In this document: piece by piece, positions 45,208-51,353 of the stretch
How the letters are laid out: each line of letters starts with the position of its first letter
How positions within the stretch are numbered: the first letter of the stretch is position 1
NCBI RefSeq assembly: GCF_014639315.1
Contig: NZ_BMFY01000002.1
Span: forward strand, 1 to 64,000
Direction: 5' to 3'
Length of the DNA stretch: 64,000 nt
DNA from: Sediminivirga luteola
GTDB lineage: Bacteria; Actinomycetota; Actinomycetes; Actinomycetales; Brevibacteriaceae
Translations under genes and position numbers: made by a program
Notes under the pieces: generated by a model
The model's input: the letters and a program-made list of their open reading frames with translations, nothing else
What the model was told of the DNA's origin: nothing
The model's database searches: none

Positions 45208-45280
45208 GCGCCATTAGCTCAACGGATAGAGCATCTGACTACGGATCAGAAGGTTGGGGGTTCGAATCCCTCATGGCGCG
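45208..45280 (+). tRNA. tRNA-Arg (anticodon ACG)
   Basis: A complete 73-base cloverleaf: acceptor GCGCCAT pairing with ATGGCGC, D-arm GCTC/GAGC, anticodon stem TCTGA/TCAGA with loop CTACGGA (anticodon ACG), T-arm GGGGG TTCGAAT CCCTC. The 3' CCA is not encoded. A34 must be edited to inosine by TadA to read CGU, CGC and CGA; tadA is present at the left end of the window. Confidence 0.97.
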
Positions 45281-45285
45281 CAGCA

Positions 45286-45328
45286 GAAACCGGCCCTGAC
45301 CAGCACACAAGCTGGCAGGGCCGGTTTC
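45286..45328 (+). terminator. Rho-independent terminator after tRNA-Arg
   Basis: GAAACCGGCCCTG-A-CCAGC (45286-45304) pairs with GCTGGCAGGGCCGGTTTC (45311-45328), an 18-bp stem with one bulged A and a six-base loop, followed by TT. Six bases after the tRNA. Confidence 0.85.
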
Positions 45329-45385
45329 TTATACCGCGCCTCAGGCCCGCGGCCGTCCGCTTCAGCGACTCAGCCTCTTGACACT

Positions 45386-45418
45386 TATCGTTTTTCGATA
45401 CAGTATCGAAAAACGATA
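45386..45418. promoter_or_regulatory. 33-bp perfect inverted repeat made of two tandem palindromes; probable XRE operator
   Basis: TATCGTTTTTCGATA (45386-45400) and TATCGAAAAACGATA (45404-45418) are each 5-5-5 palindromes, and together they form one perfect 16-1-16 inverted repeat. TTGACA at 45378-45383 is a consensus -35 box, so the repeat covers the -10 region (CAGTAT at 45401-45406, 17-base spacer). A related half-site ACGATAAG follows at 45428-45435, mirrored by CTTATCGT at 45384-45391. An autoregulated switch by the XRE protein two genes on is likely. Confidence 0.7.
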
Positions 45419-45448
45419 TATTGACTAACGATAAGTCCGGAGGCGAAC

Positions 45449-46081
45449 ATGAGTCCCAGCACAGATCCCGCACGTAGTGGCACCGGCAAGCCTCGCGCAA
45501 AGGGTGCGGGCGCGGGCGGCGAGTACCTCGTCCTCCTCCCCGCGGTATTCCTTGCCGGCGACGTCCTCGGCAGCATCGTCCGGGCCGTCAGGCACCGGGA
45601 ACTGGATGTCACGCTCGACTTCACCGATGACGCAGCCGCCAGCGCCCTTACCGAGGGCACGGCAGTCCCCCTACGGGGCATGGCGGAACTCAGCATTCCG
45701 TTCGGCGACCTGGCCGGCGTCACCATCGGCATGCTGATCGCGGCCAAGATCATCCTCGTCCTCGGGCTCATCATCTGCTCCTGGTGGGCAGGGCGCGTAC
45801 TGAACCGCGTCGCCGAGGGCCGGGCCTTCGCCGACCAGCCCATCATCGACCTCGGCCGCATCTTCTGGGTTGGGGGCTCCACGCTCATGCTCCACGGCGG
45901 GCTGCTCCTCCTGGGCAGCAATCTGGCGACCCGGGATCTGGGCCTCGCCGAACACGTGAACAACAGCGTGTCCACGCTGGACATCTTCACGGCGCTGGCG
46001 ATCCTAGGTGCCGTCGAGGTCGTGCGCCGCGCGTTCGTCTCCGGGAAGAAGGCCCACGACGAGCTGGAAGGGGTCATCTGA
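45449..46081 (+). CDS. DUF2975-type membrane protein
   Basis: 210 residues with four membrane helices (about 27-48, 88-115, 140-163, 178-197). VLNRVAEGRAFADQPIIDL and the topology match DUF2975 proteins, which are typically encoded just before a small Cro/CI regulator. The extracellular loop of about 40 residues is acidic. CCGGAGG at 45437-45443 precedes the ATG. Function unknown. Confidence 0.75.
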   Translation: MSPSTDPARSGTGKPRAKGAGAGGEYLVLLPAVFLAGDVLGSIVRAVRHRELDVTLDFTDDAAASALTEGTAVPLRGMAELSIPFGDLAGVTIGMLIAAKIILVLGLIICSWWAGRVLNRVAEGRAFADQPIIDLGRIFWVGGSTLMLHGGLLLLGSNLATRDLGLAEHVNNSVSTLDIFTALAILGAVEVVRRAFVSGKKAHDELEGVI

Positions 46082-46082
46082 G

Positions 46083-46337
46083 GTGTCACCCTCCAGCCCC
46101 GCGCCGCACGCGAGAATCGTCTGCCATCTAGACGAACTGCTGCAACGAAGAGGCATGACCCTGACCGAGCTCTCCTCGCAGGTCGGCGTCAGCCTGGCGA
46201 ATCTCTCGGTGCTGAAGAACAACCGCGCGAAGGCCGTGCGTTACACCACCCTCGTCGCCCTGTGCCAGGCGCTCGACTGCCAACCCGGCGACCTGTTCAC
46301 GATGGAGGCCGTGGCTGACGTGCCAGGCCACGACTGA
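46083..46337 (+). CDS. Small XRE/Cro-CI regulator (YozG-like)
   Basis: About 84 residues. LDELLQRRGMTLTELSSQVG then VSLANLSVLKNNRAKAVRYT and TLVALCQALDCQPGDLF are the YozG-type HTH. GTG 46083 starts one base after the DUF2975 stop with GGAAGGGG upstream. Probably binds the tandem palindromes in front of the pair. Confidence 0.85.
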   Translation: MSPSSPAPHARIVCHLDELLQRRGMTLTELSSQVGVSLANLSVLKNNRAKAVRYTTLVALCQALDCQPGDLFTMEAVADVPGHD

Positions 46338-46420: not shown

Positions 46421-49400
46421 TCAACCGTTCTGACGGCGGCTGACGCACAGGGCTGCTGCGCCGGCTGCGATCAGCGCCAAGCCCGCGCCCAGACCAGCCA
46501 GCTCGGCACCAGTCCGCGGCAGGCTACTACCCCCACCGCCACCGGAACCGTTATCACCGCCGGAGCCAGAACCGCCGTCACCGTCGCCGGAGCCGGGCTG
46601 ACCCGGATCGGCGTCCTCTGCGACCTCGAACGACGCCGACAGATCCGTGCCTTCCACACCCACGGTGTAGCTACCCACATACACGGCAGGGTTGGCCGGG
46701 TTGTCCCCATAGATCACGAACTCCGCCACACCCTCAGCATTCACTTCAACCGTCTCAGACAGGCCCGTGACGTCGCTGCCGTCAGGGACCACGGTGAACG
46801 TCACGCTCTCACCGGCGGTGAACCCGCTCGCGGTGGCCCTCACGCCCTGCTCCGGATCCACGAACGCCTCCGGAGTGACCCGCTCCGGTGCCACGCTCAA
46901 CGCCGGCTCGGCCGGGGCGTCATCGGCGAGGACCTCGAACGGCGTGGAGAACACCACTGTCTCACCCTGGAACACCGTGAACGTGTGCTCACCGGCGTCG
47001 ATCTCCGGGACGGTGAACCTCACCGCACCCCCGTCCACCGTGGCGGTGCCCAGGTCGACCGGGTCGGAGTTGAACTGGCCGCGGAGCTCTTCACCTTCGT
47101 ACTCCTCCAGTCCGGTGACGGTGATCGGGTCACCGGGATGACCGGAGGTGACATCCACCTGGATACCGGTACCGGGCTCAGTCGGATCCGTCGTCGGCTC
47201 GGGCTCAGTCGGATCCGTCGTGGGCTCGGTCGGTGCCGGGGTGGTCGGCTCCGGCTCCGTGGGTGCCGGGGTCGTCGGTTCCGGTTCGGTCGGGTCCGTG
47301 GTGGGCTCCGGCTCCGTCGGGTCCGTGGTGGGTTCCGGCTCCGTGGGTGCCGGGGTGGTCGGCTCCGGCTCCGTCGGCTCAGGGGACGGTCCCGGTTCCG
47401 TGCCGTCGAACAGGCCCACGATGAGCGGATCGTGGTCCGAGGCGCGGAACGGATCCGGTGCGTACAGCTCGGCGACGTTGTAGTTGTACCGGCTGTACTC
47501 GTAGGCGACGGCCTCCACCGAGTTGATCTGCCAGATATCGGCTCCCTGCACCGCGTCCCGGGCAGGGCCCTCCAGCGCCAGGATGTGGTCCAGGCTCCCG
47601 GTGCGTCCGCTGAACACGTAGGTGGACTTGTCCGTGAGCTCCTGGCCGATGTTGTGGTAACCGGCCTCGTAGAACACCTGCATCGGGTCTTCCTCCGTGT
47701 AGGAGTTGAAGTCACCCAGCAGATAGACGCTCTCAGTCCCCAGCTCCTCGCGCAGCTCCTCGGCGAAGGACACCAGCGCGGTCGCCTGCGCGACGCGGTC
47801 CGCGTTCGAGGCGCCCTGGCCGTCACCGGTGTCCTCATTGCCCGGACCCGAGCCGGAACCCTTGGACTTGAAGTGGTTCACGATGGCCAGGAACGCGTTC
47901 TCCTCCTCCGGCTCCCCCGAGGCGTCCAGCGGGGCGAAGGCCTGCGCGAGCGGGGCCCGCGCGTTGTGGAAGGCGTCGTCGATCTGCGCCGCCGAGTCTC
48001 CGAGGGGAGCGACCTCCGCGGGCTGGTAGATGAAGGCGGTGCGGATGACATCGTCGTTCTCCGGCAGTTGCTCCGGCGAGCGGATGTAATCCCACCTCTC
48101 CTCACCGGCGTGCTCGTTGAGCGCCTCGACCAGCTGCGCCAGCGCGGCATCGCGGTCCAGATCGAAGCGGCTGGAGTTCTCGATCTCCTCCAGCGACAGC
48201 ACCGAGGTGTCCATGCGGTTGATGGCCTCGACGATCTTCGCCTGCTGCCGCTCGAAGCTCTCCGCGTTCGCCGCGCCGCGGGCATCGCAGCCGCCGCGGA
48301 CCGTGACCGGATTGCCTTCGCGGTCGTTGTAGTACTGGCAGCCGTCCAGCTGATCGCCTGTGGTGATGAAGTAGTTCAGCACGTTGAAGCTGGCCAGAGT
48401 GATCCGCCCCGGCACCTCCAGCGGCGCGTCCTGACGGGTGTCCTCGATCAGCACCGGCTGCGCTGCCTCCGCATTGTCCCCGGTCAGCTGCTCGAGCGGC
48501 TGGAACCGCCAGGCGTCGAAGCCGTAGCCGAGGACGACCGGCGAGGTGAAGGACACCTGCGCGCCGACCCGCGGGGAAGCTTCCGGGTACAGGTACGGAA
48601 ACGGCGTGCCCTGCGCCTGGCTGTTGTTCATGTAGTTCCAGCTGCTGCCATCGTCCAGAATGACCTCGCGCTCGGCGTTCTCCGCCTCGACGGCGAGGGC
48701 CTCGTCCGAGAGCGGCGGGGCCACATCGGTCGGCTGGCGCAGCGGCTCCTCGCCGAGGGCCAGGAGCAGCTCACCGTACTGGTTCGCCTGGTAGTTGTCG
48801 CTGACGGTGAAGACGTCCTCCGGCTGCAGCAGCATGCCCTCCAGCGCCTCCCGCTCTTCATCGGTCAGCGGGAACGAGGCGACGGGCTTGGGTGCTTCGA
48901 CGGCCTCGTCCAGGACGCTCGCGCCGCCGGCGGCGACGGTGATCTGAGTCTGCCCGTAGTACTCCGAGACCTGACCGGTGACCTCGACGTATTGGCCGGT
49001 CTGCACGTCGTTCACCGTGGCCGAGGAGTACACGAAGATGCCGTCGGAGGCCTCCCGCTCCTCCTCGCCGCCCGTGCCGGGCGTCTGGATGAAGTACCCG
49101 TTCAGCCCGCCCGTGGGGTAGGCGGCGGTGACCACGCCGCGGGTGGTGACGGTCTGGCCCTGCAGGGGGCTCTCCTCCCCGGTGCCCTGGATCTCCGCGA
49201 TGGCGGTGACCTCGCCGGGCTCGACCGGCGGCTCAGTCGGTTCGGCGCCGGGTCCGCCGGGCAGCGTGCCGGGGGTCGGAGCCGCCGAGGTCCAGCTGCC
49301 GTCGACGAGCTGGATGCTCTCCCCGGAGGCGGCGACGGCACCCGTCGGGCTCGCCTCCACTCCGACGACCGCCGCTGGGGTCTGACCGCCGGCAGCACCA

Positions 49401-49879
49401 GTGACGCCGCGGCCGCCGGCAACGCCGCCGATCTGCTGGAAGTCGTGGAGCGTACCTTCGGCGTCGATGACGAAAGCGCTCGCGCCATACGAACCGTCGG
49501 CGGCGGCACCGCTGTTCACGCTGTTGGTGATCTGCACCTCGACCGCGAGGGCGCCGGACTCACCGACCTGTGTGCCCTCGGGCAAGGTGACCAGGTAGTC
49601 CGCGGCCTGCACGCTGCCGCCGCGAGTCACCGAGCCGACCGTCCAGCCGGACAGGTCGGTGCCGGGGTCAGCAGCGACCTCGATGAAGTCCGCCGGGAGG
49701 GTGTAGCCGATCTCGGTGATCGCGGCCGGGTCGGGCAGATCCGGGACGGTGGCGGCGGTGGCCGCGGGGGCGAATCCGACGGCGAGGACGGTCGCGGCTG
49801 CGGCGGCACCCGCGGTGAGAATGGGCTTGCGGGTACGCGGCGGCACGCCGCCCGTACCCTGGGGGATGGATCCGGGCAT
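46421..49879 (-). CDS. Large LPxTG-anchored extracellular nuclease (ExeM/NucH-like)
   Basis: 1152 residues. Signal peptide to about residue 42 (APAATAATV). A lamin-tail-like domain (about 45-190), an OB-fold segment (GQTVTTRGVVTAAYPTGG) and an EEP nuclease domain follow, the last with ITLASFNVLNYF, SLEEIENSSRFD, AIVNHFKSKGSG, YLLGDFNSYTEEDP and ASDHDPLIVG. Then come a Pro/Thr/Glu stalk, two Ig-like domains and the sorting signal LPRTG plus a membrane helix and RRQNG. It would be sortase-bound to the wall and degrade environmental DNA for nutrients or biofilm turnover. AGGAG precedes ATG 49879; the longer frame upstream is shadow. Confidence 0.9.
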   Translation of the reverse strand: MPGSIPQGTGGVPPRTRKPILTAGAAAAATVLAVGFAPAATAATVPDLPDPAAITEIGYTLPADFIEVAADPGTDLSGWTVGSVTRGGSVQAADYLVTLPEGTQVGESGALAVEVQITNSVNSGAAADGSYGASAFVIDAEGTLHDFQQIGGVAGGRGVTGAAGGQTPAAVVGVEASPTGAVAASGESIQLVDGSWTSAAPTPGTLPGGPGAEPTEPPVEPGEVTAIAEIQGTGEESPLQGQTVTTRGVVTAAYPTGGLNGYFIQTPGTGGEEEREASDGIFVYSSATVNDVQTGQYVEVTGQVSEYYGQTQITVAAGGASVLDEAVEAPKPVASFPLTDEEREALEGMLLQPEDVFTVSDNYQANQYGELLLALGEEPLRQPTDVAPPLSDEALAVEAENAEREVILDDGSSWNYMNNSQAQGTPFPYLYPEASPRVGAQVSFTSPVVLGYGFDAWRFQPLEQLTGDNAEAAQPVLIEDTRQDAPLEVPGRITLASFNVLNYFITTGDQLDGCQYYNDREGNPVTVRGGCDARGAANAESFERQQAKIVEAINRMDTSVLSLEEIENSSRFDLDRDAALAQLVEALNEHAGEERWDYIRSPEQLPENDDVIRTAFIYQPAEVAPLGDSAAQIDDAFHNARAPLAQAFAPLDASGEPEEENAFLAIVNHFKSKGSGSGPGNEDTGDGQGASNADRVAQATALVSFAEELREELGTESVYLLGDFNSYTEEDPMQVFYEAGYHNIGQELTDKSTYVFSGRTGSLDHILALEGPARDAVQGADIWQINSVEAVAYEYSRYNYNVAELYAPDPFRASDHDPLIVGLFDGTEPGPSPEPTEPEPTTPAPTEPEPTTDPTEPEPTTDPTEPEPTTPAPTEPEPTTPAPTEPTTDPTEPEPTTDPTEPGTGIQVDVTSGHPGDPITVTGLEEYEGEELRGQFNSDPVDLGTATVDGGAVRFTVPEIDAGEHTFTVFQGETVVFSTPFEVLADDAPAEPALSVAPERVTPEAFVDPEQGVRATASGFTAGESVTFTVVPDGSDVTGLSETVEVNAEGVAEFVIYGDNPANPAVYVGSYTVGVEGTDLSASFEVAEDADPGQPGSGDGDGGSGSGGDNGSGGGGGSSLPRTGAELAGLGAGLALIAAGAAALCVSRRQNG
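47172..47400 (-). repeat. Tandem Pro/Thr/Glu repeats within the nuclease stalk
   Basis: About 75 codons of the units EPEPTTDPT and EPTTPAPT in irregular order, encoding a wall-spanning stalk. The DNA repeats are near-identical, so copy number may vary between strains. This is coding repeat, not a CRISPR array. Confidence 0.85.
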
Positions 49880-50213
49880 GGGAGCACTCCTGAAGTCAGG
49901 CACGGATGGGTGACTAGAGCGTAACGCAAGGCTCCCTGGGAACAGGTGGCCTTCAGTTGAACAGCGCGCGAACGCCCAAGACCCGCCCGCGCCCCATCCA
50001 CCGCGGCACCGCGGAAAACCACTGCCCGGCCGGTCCGGCACAACGGCATCGGCGTCGCGATCGTGCCGCCGGCCACGGCATCGGCGCCAGTGGAAACCTG
50101 GCCGAAACATCCTTGACACAGGTCCTATACACGCGTGGAGAAGAATCGACACGGACCACGCTCCCGGCCCGCGAAAGCGGCCATCGACCCTCAAGCCCGC
50201 AAAGGATCCGCCC

Positions 50214-51353
50214 GTGAGCGAGACGACCGCCATCGACTTCCTGTACCTCTCCGAGCCGGACATGATCCGGGCCGGCGTGACCGATATGGCCGCCTGCGTG
50301 GACACGATGGAGGAGACGCTCGCGCTCCTGCACGCCGGGGACTACCGGATGGCCGGAGCCAACAACGACTCCCACGGCGCCATGATCGGCTTCCCCGAGC
50401 AGCCCGCGTTCCCGGGCATGCCCGCGCACGGCCCCGACCGCCGCTTCATGGCCATGCCGGCCTACCTGGGCGGCCGCTTCGGCACCACCGGGGTGAAGTG
50501 GTACGGCTCGAACGCCGCCAACCGCGACCGCGGCCTGCCCAGGTCCATCCACGTCTTCGTCCTCAACGACACCGAGACCGGCGCGCCGCTGGCCCTCATG
50601 TCCGCCAACCTCCTCTCCGCCTACCGGACCGGCGCCATCCCGGGAGTCGGCGCACGGCACCTCGCCCGCCCGGACGCCACGACCGTGGGCATCCTGGGAC
50701 CGGGCGTGATGGCGCGGACTTCACTGGCGGCGTTCCTCGTCGCCCGGCCCGGCATCCACACGGTCAAGGTCCTCGGCCGCGGCGAGCGCAGCATGCGCGC
50801 CTTCACTACCTGGCTGGCGGAGGAGTTCCCGCAGATCAGCACCGTCACACCGGTCTCGAGTGTGGAGGAGGTGGTGCGCGGCAGCGATATCGTGACTTTC
50901 TGCGCCACCGGCCGCGCCGACACCGTCGCGGAGTTCCCCACCGTGCGACGGGAGTGGGTCAAGCCCGGCGCGTTCCTGAGCATGCCGGCGACGTGCAACA
51001 TCGACGACGCCCTCACCGCGCCCAATGTCCGCAAGGTGGTCGACAACTCCGGCATGTACGAGGCCTGGGCCGCCGAGTTCCCCTACCCGACGCACCCTGA
51101 GGTGGGCATCATCGGCACCAAGTTCACGGATCTGATCGCCGAGGGCACGATGGACAGGACGCAGATGGAGGACATCGGCGCCATCATCACCGGCGAGGCG
51201 CCCGGGCGGAAGGACAATGAGGAGATCGTCGTGTTCTCCGTCGGCGGGATGCCGGTGGAGGACGTCGCCTGGGCCACGACGCTTTACCGGCGGGCGGTGG
51301 CAGAGGGCATCGGCGTCCGCCTGAACCTCTGGGATGCGCCTGCGCTGGCGTGA
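50214..51353 (+). CDS. Ornithine cyclodeaminase / mu-crystallin family protein
   Basis: 379 residues. The NAD-binding Rossmann part is TVGILGPGVMARTSLAAFL. Before it KWYGSNAANRDRGLPRSIHV and SANLLSAYRTGAIPGVGARH are typical. The long N-terminus with NNDSHGAMIGFPEQPAFPGM is not in classical ornithine cyclodeaminases. It recalls a subfamily annotated as a tyramine oxidase subunit; I recall this only loosely. GTG start with AAAGGA upstream. Followed by the first MTOX-like oxidase, so a role in amine or N-substituted amino acid metabolism is likely. Confidence 0.75.
   Translation: MSETTAIDFLYLSEPDMIRAGVTDMAACVDTMEETLALLHAGDYRMAGANNDSHGAMIGFPEQPAFPGMPAHGPDRRFMAMPAYLGGRFGTTGVKWYGSNAANRDRGLPRSIHVFVLNDTETGAPLALMSANLLSAYRTGAIPGVGARHLARPDATTVGILGPGVMARTSLAAFLVARPGIHTVKVLGRGERSMRAFTTWLAEEFPQISTVTPVSSVEEVVRGSDIVTFCATGRADTVAEFPTVRREWVKPGAFLSMPATCNIDDALTAPNVRKVVDNSGMYEAWAAEFPYPTHPEVGIIGTKFTDLIAEGTMDRTQMEDIGAIITGEAPGRKDNEEIVVFSVGGMPVEDVAWATTLYRRAVAEGIGVRLNLWDAPALA

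Follow-up and report, generated by a model that had tools for sequence, protein, structure and literature searches.

Known pairs of regulator and membrane protein

We take the YoaS-YozG pair of Bacillus subtilis to have the same gene order, and to belong to the same families, as the pair of genes considered here, that of a membrane protein and a small XRE-type regulator from Sediminivirga luteola. Among the relatives is a pair of this type from Bacillus mojavensis (L104), whose genome has a single TTATYG-N5-CRATAA site. In the literature text that we found, YoaS-YozG and DUF2975 are named in passing only, with no description of an operator or of a function. Four 15-base operator strings were not found in a literature search that had most subscription journals outside it, and it is against this searched literature only that novelty holds.

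The sdpRI operon has, as its name indicates, its genes in the reverse order with respect to the present pair, and its regulator SdpR belongs to another HTH family, the ArsR type. It nevertheless associates an autorepressor and a polytopic membrane protein in one operon, and in Bacillus subtilis the membrane protein, SdpI, sequesters the repressor SdpR (PMC1626106, in its available part). CylR1/CylR2 of Enterococcus faecalis can be likened to our pair by gene arrangement: a suspected membrane protein and a small HTH repressor are encoded together, and CylR1 is needed for induction, by a mechanism which, in the portion of the report at hand, is not understood (PMC3709268). CylR1, however, has three predicted membrane helices, and the CylR pair has a divergent operon as its target and a peptide as its signal (same portion of PMC3709268). 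For the regulator itself, the nearest solved structure is that of VanUG from the vanG locus (PDB 3tyr/3tys), also a small HTH protein, both by fold (E 5.5e-5 with the model of our XRE protein) and by sequence (E 1.4e-7 with the regulator alignment). According to the passages available, VanUG represses its own promoter, where the protected region contains two adjacent imperfect palindromes, the repeats being 14 bp long and imperfect, as against the 15-bp sites found here (PMC4405338). The operon partners of VanUG form a two-component system, unlike the membrane protein of the present operon. The Aca repressors of anti-CRISPR operons offer a parallel of another kind, in that the product of a downstream HTH gene acts at inverted repeats in the core promoter to repress the operon, but with other partner genes and with one or two repeats per promoter (PMC9410906, excerpts).

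The two genes and their products

The window, that is the whole stretch of DNA analysed, comprises 64,000 nucleotides of S. luteola (assembly GCF_014639315.1, contig NZ_BMFY01000002.1, positions 1-64,000, forward strand). The gene for the membrane protein (45449..46081, plus strand; 210 aa) lies directly 5' of that for the regulator (46083..46337, plus strand; 84 aa), its stop falling at 46081 and the GTG start of the regulator at 46083; this latter start is our choice, the list of open reading frames carrying a longer form from 46008. A first-pass annotation, made from the letters alone, had seen in these genes a DUF2975/XRE pair, and the second term of this proposal stands, as the regulator is a member of Pfam HTH_26 (PF13443; 71.7 bits for a cut-off of 22). 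The first term has to be softened: the membrane protein scores 18.7 bits (E 0.0017) against Pfam DUF2975 (PF11188), below the cut-off of 27, and it is for this reason termed DUF2975-like here rather than filed under that family. A profile comparison (hhalign) between 16 membrane proteins of the window's family and 18 proteins encoded 5' of the relatives' regulators, a set where two of the proteins scanned are DUF2975 by Pfam, yielded a probability of 81.6 (E 1.1e-5, 97 columns, 12% identity), a match that the shared gene order helps. This is suggestive of a protein remotely related to the DUF2975 type.

The AlphaFold model of the membrane protein (mean pLDDT 78.5) displays four long helices, in rough agreement with the hydropathy peaks. 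Comparison of this model with the PDB (Foldseek) gave no match at E <=0.001, an absence that is no sign of a new fold, while a second structure comparison returned mostly helical bundles (Z <=10.2, with a designed protein on top) and is uninformative. The model of the XRE protein (mean pLDDT 85.2) comprises little beyond the HTH domain, with no obvious ligand domain, and its closest folds are those of VanUg, SaPI2 Stl and CylR2, a VanU/CylR2-like fold; against the VanU equivalog NF000090, the protein reaches 29.1 bits, short of the cut-off of 150. A defence system or a phage origin was also considered, and rejected: PADLOC gave no hit, and PHROGs returned generic regulators only for the XRE protein and nothing for the membrane protein.

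An operator array laid over the promoter

The sites, their register with the promoter, their conservation and their association with the XRE gene were all computed directly. The promoter has a -35 hexamer, TTGACA (45378..45383, plus strand), read from the sequence, the TTGAC of which is kept across the arrays of the family. Three 15-bp palindromic sites follow. O1, TATCGTTTTTCGATA (45386..45400), occupies the spacer between the -35 and the -10; O2, TATCGAAAAACGATA (45404..45418), overlaps the last bases of the -10 and covers the expected transcription start; O3, TATTGACTAACGATA (45419..45433), abuts O2 and is followed by a probable ribosome-binding site, GGAGG (45439..45443, plus strand), also read from the sequence. 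We take the -10 to be the CAGTAT found at 45401..45406 (plus strand), 17 bp 3' of TTGACA. A simple consensus scan names TCGATA/TATATT, not CAGTAT, and in many relatives the position is taken by AAGTAT or AAACAT. Transcription would be expected to start near 45413, inside O2.

Most of what the first-pass annotation had read in this region is there. The two TATCG-N5-CGATA palindromes that it placed over the promoter are found, with two matches in the 64,000-nt window for 0.00 expected (100 shuffles), and the consensus TTGACA does precede a perfect 33-bp inverted repeat (45386..45418; 16-nt arms with 1 nt between them), made of O1 and O2 and peculiar to the S. luteola genome. A third, related site exists near the ribosome-binding site, as announced, but it is O3, a complete site, and not a half-site. 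The same annotation had called for a genome scan for further TATCG-N5-CGATA sites, and here the outcome was negative: perfect sites number two in the entire 3.86-Mb assembly, namely O1 and O2, while the wider consensus TATYG-N5-CRATA has four matches genome-wide (3.86 Mb), three of which are O1, O2 and O3. Sites with at most one mismatch are not enriched genome-wide (18, against 32 for the pattern read backward). As these scans gave no convincing site or target beyond the array, a regulon in the S. luteola genome was rejected.

Conservation in the family of the window

The family was sampled with 60 genomes, 44 of which have a match to the membrane protein at E <=0.001. Seven of the 46 matches were dropped as weak and partial (E 2.6e-5 to 9.9e-4), three of them (L042-L044) showing no XRE gene and no sites in the part scanned, and this left an orthologue set of 39 loci, the window and 38 relatives. 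In all 39, the XRE gene is directly 3' of the membrane-protein gene, and in all 39 the pair is preceded by two to four TATYG-N5-CRATA-like sites, arranged in tandem and keeping register with the promoter, O1 lying between the -35 and the -10 and O2 starting at the end of the -10. The abutting O2/O3 pair, which served as the anchor for aligning the arrays, is exactly 15 bp apart in 39 of 39 (<=2 mismatches per site). O1 (<=2 mismatches, 16-20 bp before O2) is present in 35 of 39, at 19 bp in 34 of them and at 18 bp in the window. Among the four arrays without O1 by this rule, that of L040 has its third site downstream instead; with three sites at 15/15 spacing, it entered the information and array counts as a two-site array in shifted register. 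At locus L010, O1 is lost and the -35 and -10 are kept. A fourth site is found 34-37 bp upstream of O1 in four of the 39 loci (L004, L007, L022 and L031).

The first-pass annotation had staked its reading on conservation upstream of orthologous pairs, and this conservation is pronounced: the information per column is 1.32 bits for O1, 1.70 for O2 and 1.61 for O3, against 0.20 and 0.17 in the flanks (1.3-1.7 against about 0.2 bits), the TTGAC of the -35 reaching 1.4-1.7 bits per column at the same place. It is each 15-bp unit that is conserved. Among the 35 arrays that have O1, 34 show 3-6 differences over 15 positions between O1 and the reverse complement of O2, and that of S. luteola alone shows none, so that the 33-bp inverted repeat, perfect in 1 of 35 arrays, is accidental and was rejected as a functional unit.

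Two side observations belong here. Locus L045 is a second, diverged copy (XRE protein 61% identical) in one genome of the family, with its own three-site array at 17- and 16-bp spacing, and several genomes of the family (L046, L047, L052) have the site TATCGGGTAACGATA again elsewhere.

The same operator in distant bacteria

Beyond the orthologues, 18 further XRE loci of the family have diverged regulators and, where discernible, other or shorter membrane proteins; a perfect site precedes 7 of these 18, and a site with at most one mismatch 14. At the level of the phylum, 26 of the 396 Actinomycetota genomes sampled match DUF2975 at E <=1e-5, and the 28 loci obtained comprise 20 with a perfect site and 24 with a site at <=1 mismatch. 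A set of named genomes gave no match with the membrane protein as query; with the regulator alignment it gave 585 relatives, of which the best 80 were kept as loci, a Bacillota-leaning choice that includes metagenome-assembled records whose assignment is possibly wrong; a fragment, L072, was dropped. Five plasmid loci were added, and L129, on a cut contig, was left out of the 84-locus count.

Within the 320 nt upstream, a perfect site is present at 69 of these 84 named-genome and plasmid loci (the named set being the best 80 of 585), the controls giving 0 of 84 for downstream stretches, none for the reversed pattern and a mean of 0.18 (maximum 2) for shuffles. Extended to 850 nt upstream, the count is 72 of 85, with the same best 80 of 585 as named set. 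The plasmid loci are poorer: two of five have a perfect site, those of Methylosinus and Klebsiella have none that is perfect, and that of Vibrio has one site with one mismatch. When all sets are put together, 141 of 170 loci have a perfect site in the roughly 1,350 nt that precede the regulator, distributed as 39/39 in the window family, 7/18 at the further family loci, 20/28 in the phylum, 73/80 in the named genomes (best 80 of 585) and 2/5 on plasmids; five loci with short or cut upstream parts (L055, L088, L090, L129, L162) are counted among the 170. When these stretches were shuffled ten times, 0-3 of 170 had a site, and the reversed pattern was found in none. In three of the named loci counted as perfect (L107, L160, L173), no perfect match is nearer to the regulator than the 903-1,208 nt at which those counted stand, a distance too great for a simple two-gene operon, and there the match may be due to chance or belong to another gene.

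The records with a perfect site, several of which are metagenome bins, bear the names of Bacillus, Paenibacillus, Clostridium, Chitinophaga, Maribacter, Flavobacterium and Alistipes, as well as Candidatus Magasanikbacteria, Roizmanbacteria, Wolfebacteria and Anaerolineales; we take the phyla represented to be, besides other Actinomycetota, the Bacillota, the Bacteroidota, the Patescibacteria and, with one record, the Chloroflexota. That the same operator should be kept across phyla is, in our judgement, unusual for a local autoregulator. In 61 sites of the named set, chosen by TATTG-N5-CRATA, TT is added before the motif and AA after it, and the TTG doubles as the -35, with a TAAAAT-like -10 17 nt further on. 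As this TTG is part of the -35, a compromise with the promoter plausibly accounts for the T of the first half-site; O1 and O2 of the window would need no such T, the -35 lying outside the sites.

Sites and regulators occur together

The association between operator and regulator was followed in 397 genomes of one order of Bacillota, with the exact 19-bp form TTTATTG-NN-AAACGATAAA. This 19-mer is present in 140 of the 397 genomes, for six matches of the control, and a regulator (E <=1e-20) in 307, which makes this type of regulator a widespread one. All 140 genomes with the site have the XRE gene and none of the 90 genomes devoid of XRE has the site (Fisher p 1.4e-20, a value which ignores shared ancestry); 167 of the 307 genomes with XRE are without the exact 19-mer, variants of the site falling outside this count. 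Where operator copies without an adjacent XRE gene were checked, the genome holds an XRE gene elsewhere. The regulator itself shows a matching trait: where the recognition helix is followed by the motif [KR]A[KR]A, 141 of 163 proteins have a perfect site, against 0 of 7 for those without it (p 2e-6, again with shared ancestry ignored, and for a motif chosen after the data had been seen). Two loci, L067 and L086, keep the motif and have two-mismatch sites only, the 1,350 nt examined being free of sites with at most one mismatch. These associations support, indirectly, the view that the XRE protein is the ligand of the palindromes.

Other genes behind the operator

Inspection of 99 exact 19-mers gave 84 in front of a membrane protein/XRE pair, 4 in front of the membrane protein alone, 2 before a remnant in which part of the regulator persists, and 9 before something else. 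These proportions are not those of a random sample, since the 99 sites combine 30 automatic loci with chosen places, many from genomes with at least two sites. Five of the nine other targets seem to form one family by sequence, of which the one scanned with Pfam is DUF817, and another is a relative of undecaprenyl diphosphate synthase (L204). This suggests a small envelope regulon in several Bacillota, as far as can be judged from such sites.

The loci concerned may be listed for the record. The operator precedes a gene for a DUF817-like membrane protein in Bacillota loci L205, L276, L279, L283 and L285 (Pfam on L276 only), and a variant site precedes such a gene in L209. At L289, a DUF817-like gene stands behind the promoter and a short remnant of the membrane protein/XRE pair, from which it may be surmised that an internal deletion put it there. 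In L206, L214, L229 and L301, genes for DUF2975-type membrane proteins have the operator, with no XRE gene found adjoining.

A switch by which the operon would repress itself

A near-identical palindrome standing before related pairs in such distant bacteria is very probably the switch by which the XRE protein turns its own operon off. We hold it highly probable, on these comparisons of sequences, that the repressor of the operon is one of its own products, dimers of the XRE protein being predicted to bind TATYG-N5-CRATA sites and to block the promoter. Binding, dimerisation, repression and cooperativity are what we infer, and the sequence of events might be the following. Dimers of the small XRE protein would occupy O1, within the -35/-10 spacer, then O2, which covers the -10 and the start site, as well as O3 just downstream; together, the occupied sites would block RNA polymerase, and expression of both genes would stay low, at a level governed by the XRE protein. 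As the sites lie close to one another, dimers could fill them cooperatively.

The role of the membrane protein is a separate matter. By analogy with the SdpI/SdpR or CylR1/CylR2 switches, the membrane protein encoded upstream would release the repressor on some envelope signal; we put forward this role of sensor tentatively, the balance leaning somewhat against it. What suggests an antagonist is the near-constant adjacency of the genes, together with a better-conserved C-terminal tail. Among 78 named loci, most have a gap of about 10 nt between the two genes, and the frequency of the top residue is 0.74 in the tail versus 0.49 in the rest of the protein (0.68 versus 0.44 in a second alignment). 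Part of this conserved tail also encodes, in the window family, the likely ribosome-binding site of the next gene; in nine named loci the codons of the tail are mostly unlike such a site. One may go further and imagine an ancient envelope switch, with TATYG-N5-CRATA as its cis code in at least five phyla, where the tail of a membrane sensor captures a small autorepressor and where some Bacillota promoters were captured by other envelope genes (DUF817, undecaprenyl diphosphate synthase) to produce small regulons, but this broader picture is a doubtful one.

The alternative that survives best bears on this role. The membrane protein may simply be an effector, for example a transporter, the XRE protein responding either to its own abundance or to some small molecule, with no interaction between the two proteins, and we give this view little less than an even chance. 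In the part consulted of a genome survey (PMC2701414), the entry for the YoaS-like family reads 'a membrane protein, likely permease', and the four Bacillota copies, out of 99 sites, that lack an adjoining XRE gene keep the operator. Against it may be set the tail, better conserved than the remainder of the protein, and a regulator reduced, in its model, to little more than an HTH domain, where a ligand domain is not apparent.

The other alternatives fare far worse. The XRE protein could bind the sites and activate the operon, or both activate and repress it, and the fourth site present in four of the 39 family loci, upstream of the -35, would be a possible seat for an activator. We find this improbable, as the conserved sites sit on the spacer, the -10 and the start, or overlap the -35 in the named set, which are positions typical of repression, and as the neighbour by fold, VanUG, is a repressor (PMC4405338, available passages). 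A toxin-antitoxin module, with a toxic membrane protein and the XRE protein as its antitoxin, deserves slightly less credit still: the operon is compact, with two genes and probable autoregulation, and pairs of YoaS-like and Xre proteins are tabulated in a survey of such modules, yet the entry is starred in the table as available to us (PMC2701414), PADLOC, which holds defence models only, gave no hit, and copies of the membrane protein persist with no adjoining XRE gene. That another, unlinked regulator should bind the sites, the XRE gene being a mere passenger, appears far-fetched when all 140 site-bearing genomes of the order have XRE, including those checked where an operator copy is away from it, when the same site precedes the pair across phyla and when XRE proteins with an altered motif go without the site (0/7). 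Finally, RNA hairpins (terminator, attenuator or riboswitch) may practically be dismissed, for although the 33-nt perfect repeat could fold as RNA in S. luteola, O1 and over half of O2 lie upstream of the transcription start expected near 45413, the 33-bp pairing is lost in relatives that keep the 15-bp units, and Rfam finds a tRNA only.

Self-repression through the palindromes, if retained as the working view, has practical consequences. With a fixed operator, targets become predictable from sequence, a ready-made reporter promoter is at hand, and the role of the membrane protein becomes testable.

Features next to the operon

Upstream of the operon lies a tRNA-Arg (ACG) gene at 45208-45280, followed by a 14-bp perfect inverted repeat (45285-45329). 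A tRNA gene is present in 2 of the 19 loci scanned, so that linkage to a tRNA is no general feature of the operon. On the other side, a long convergent ORF (46421-50305, minus strand) encodes a protein with an LPRTG-like motif at its C-terminus and a hydrophobic tail, which we take to resemble a sortase-anchored extracellular nuclease.
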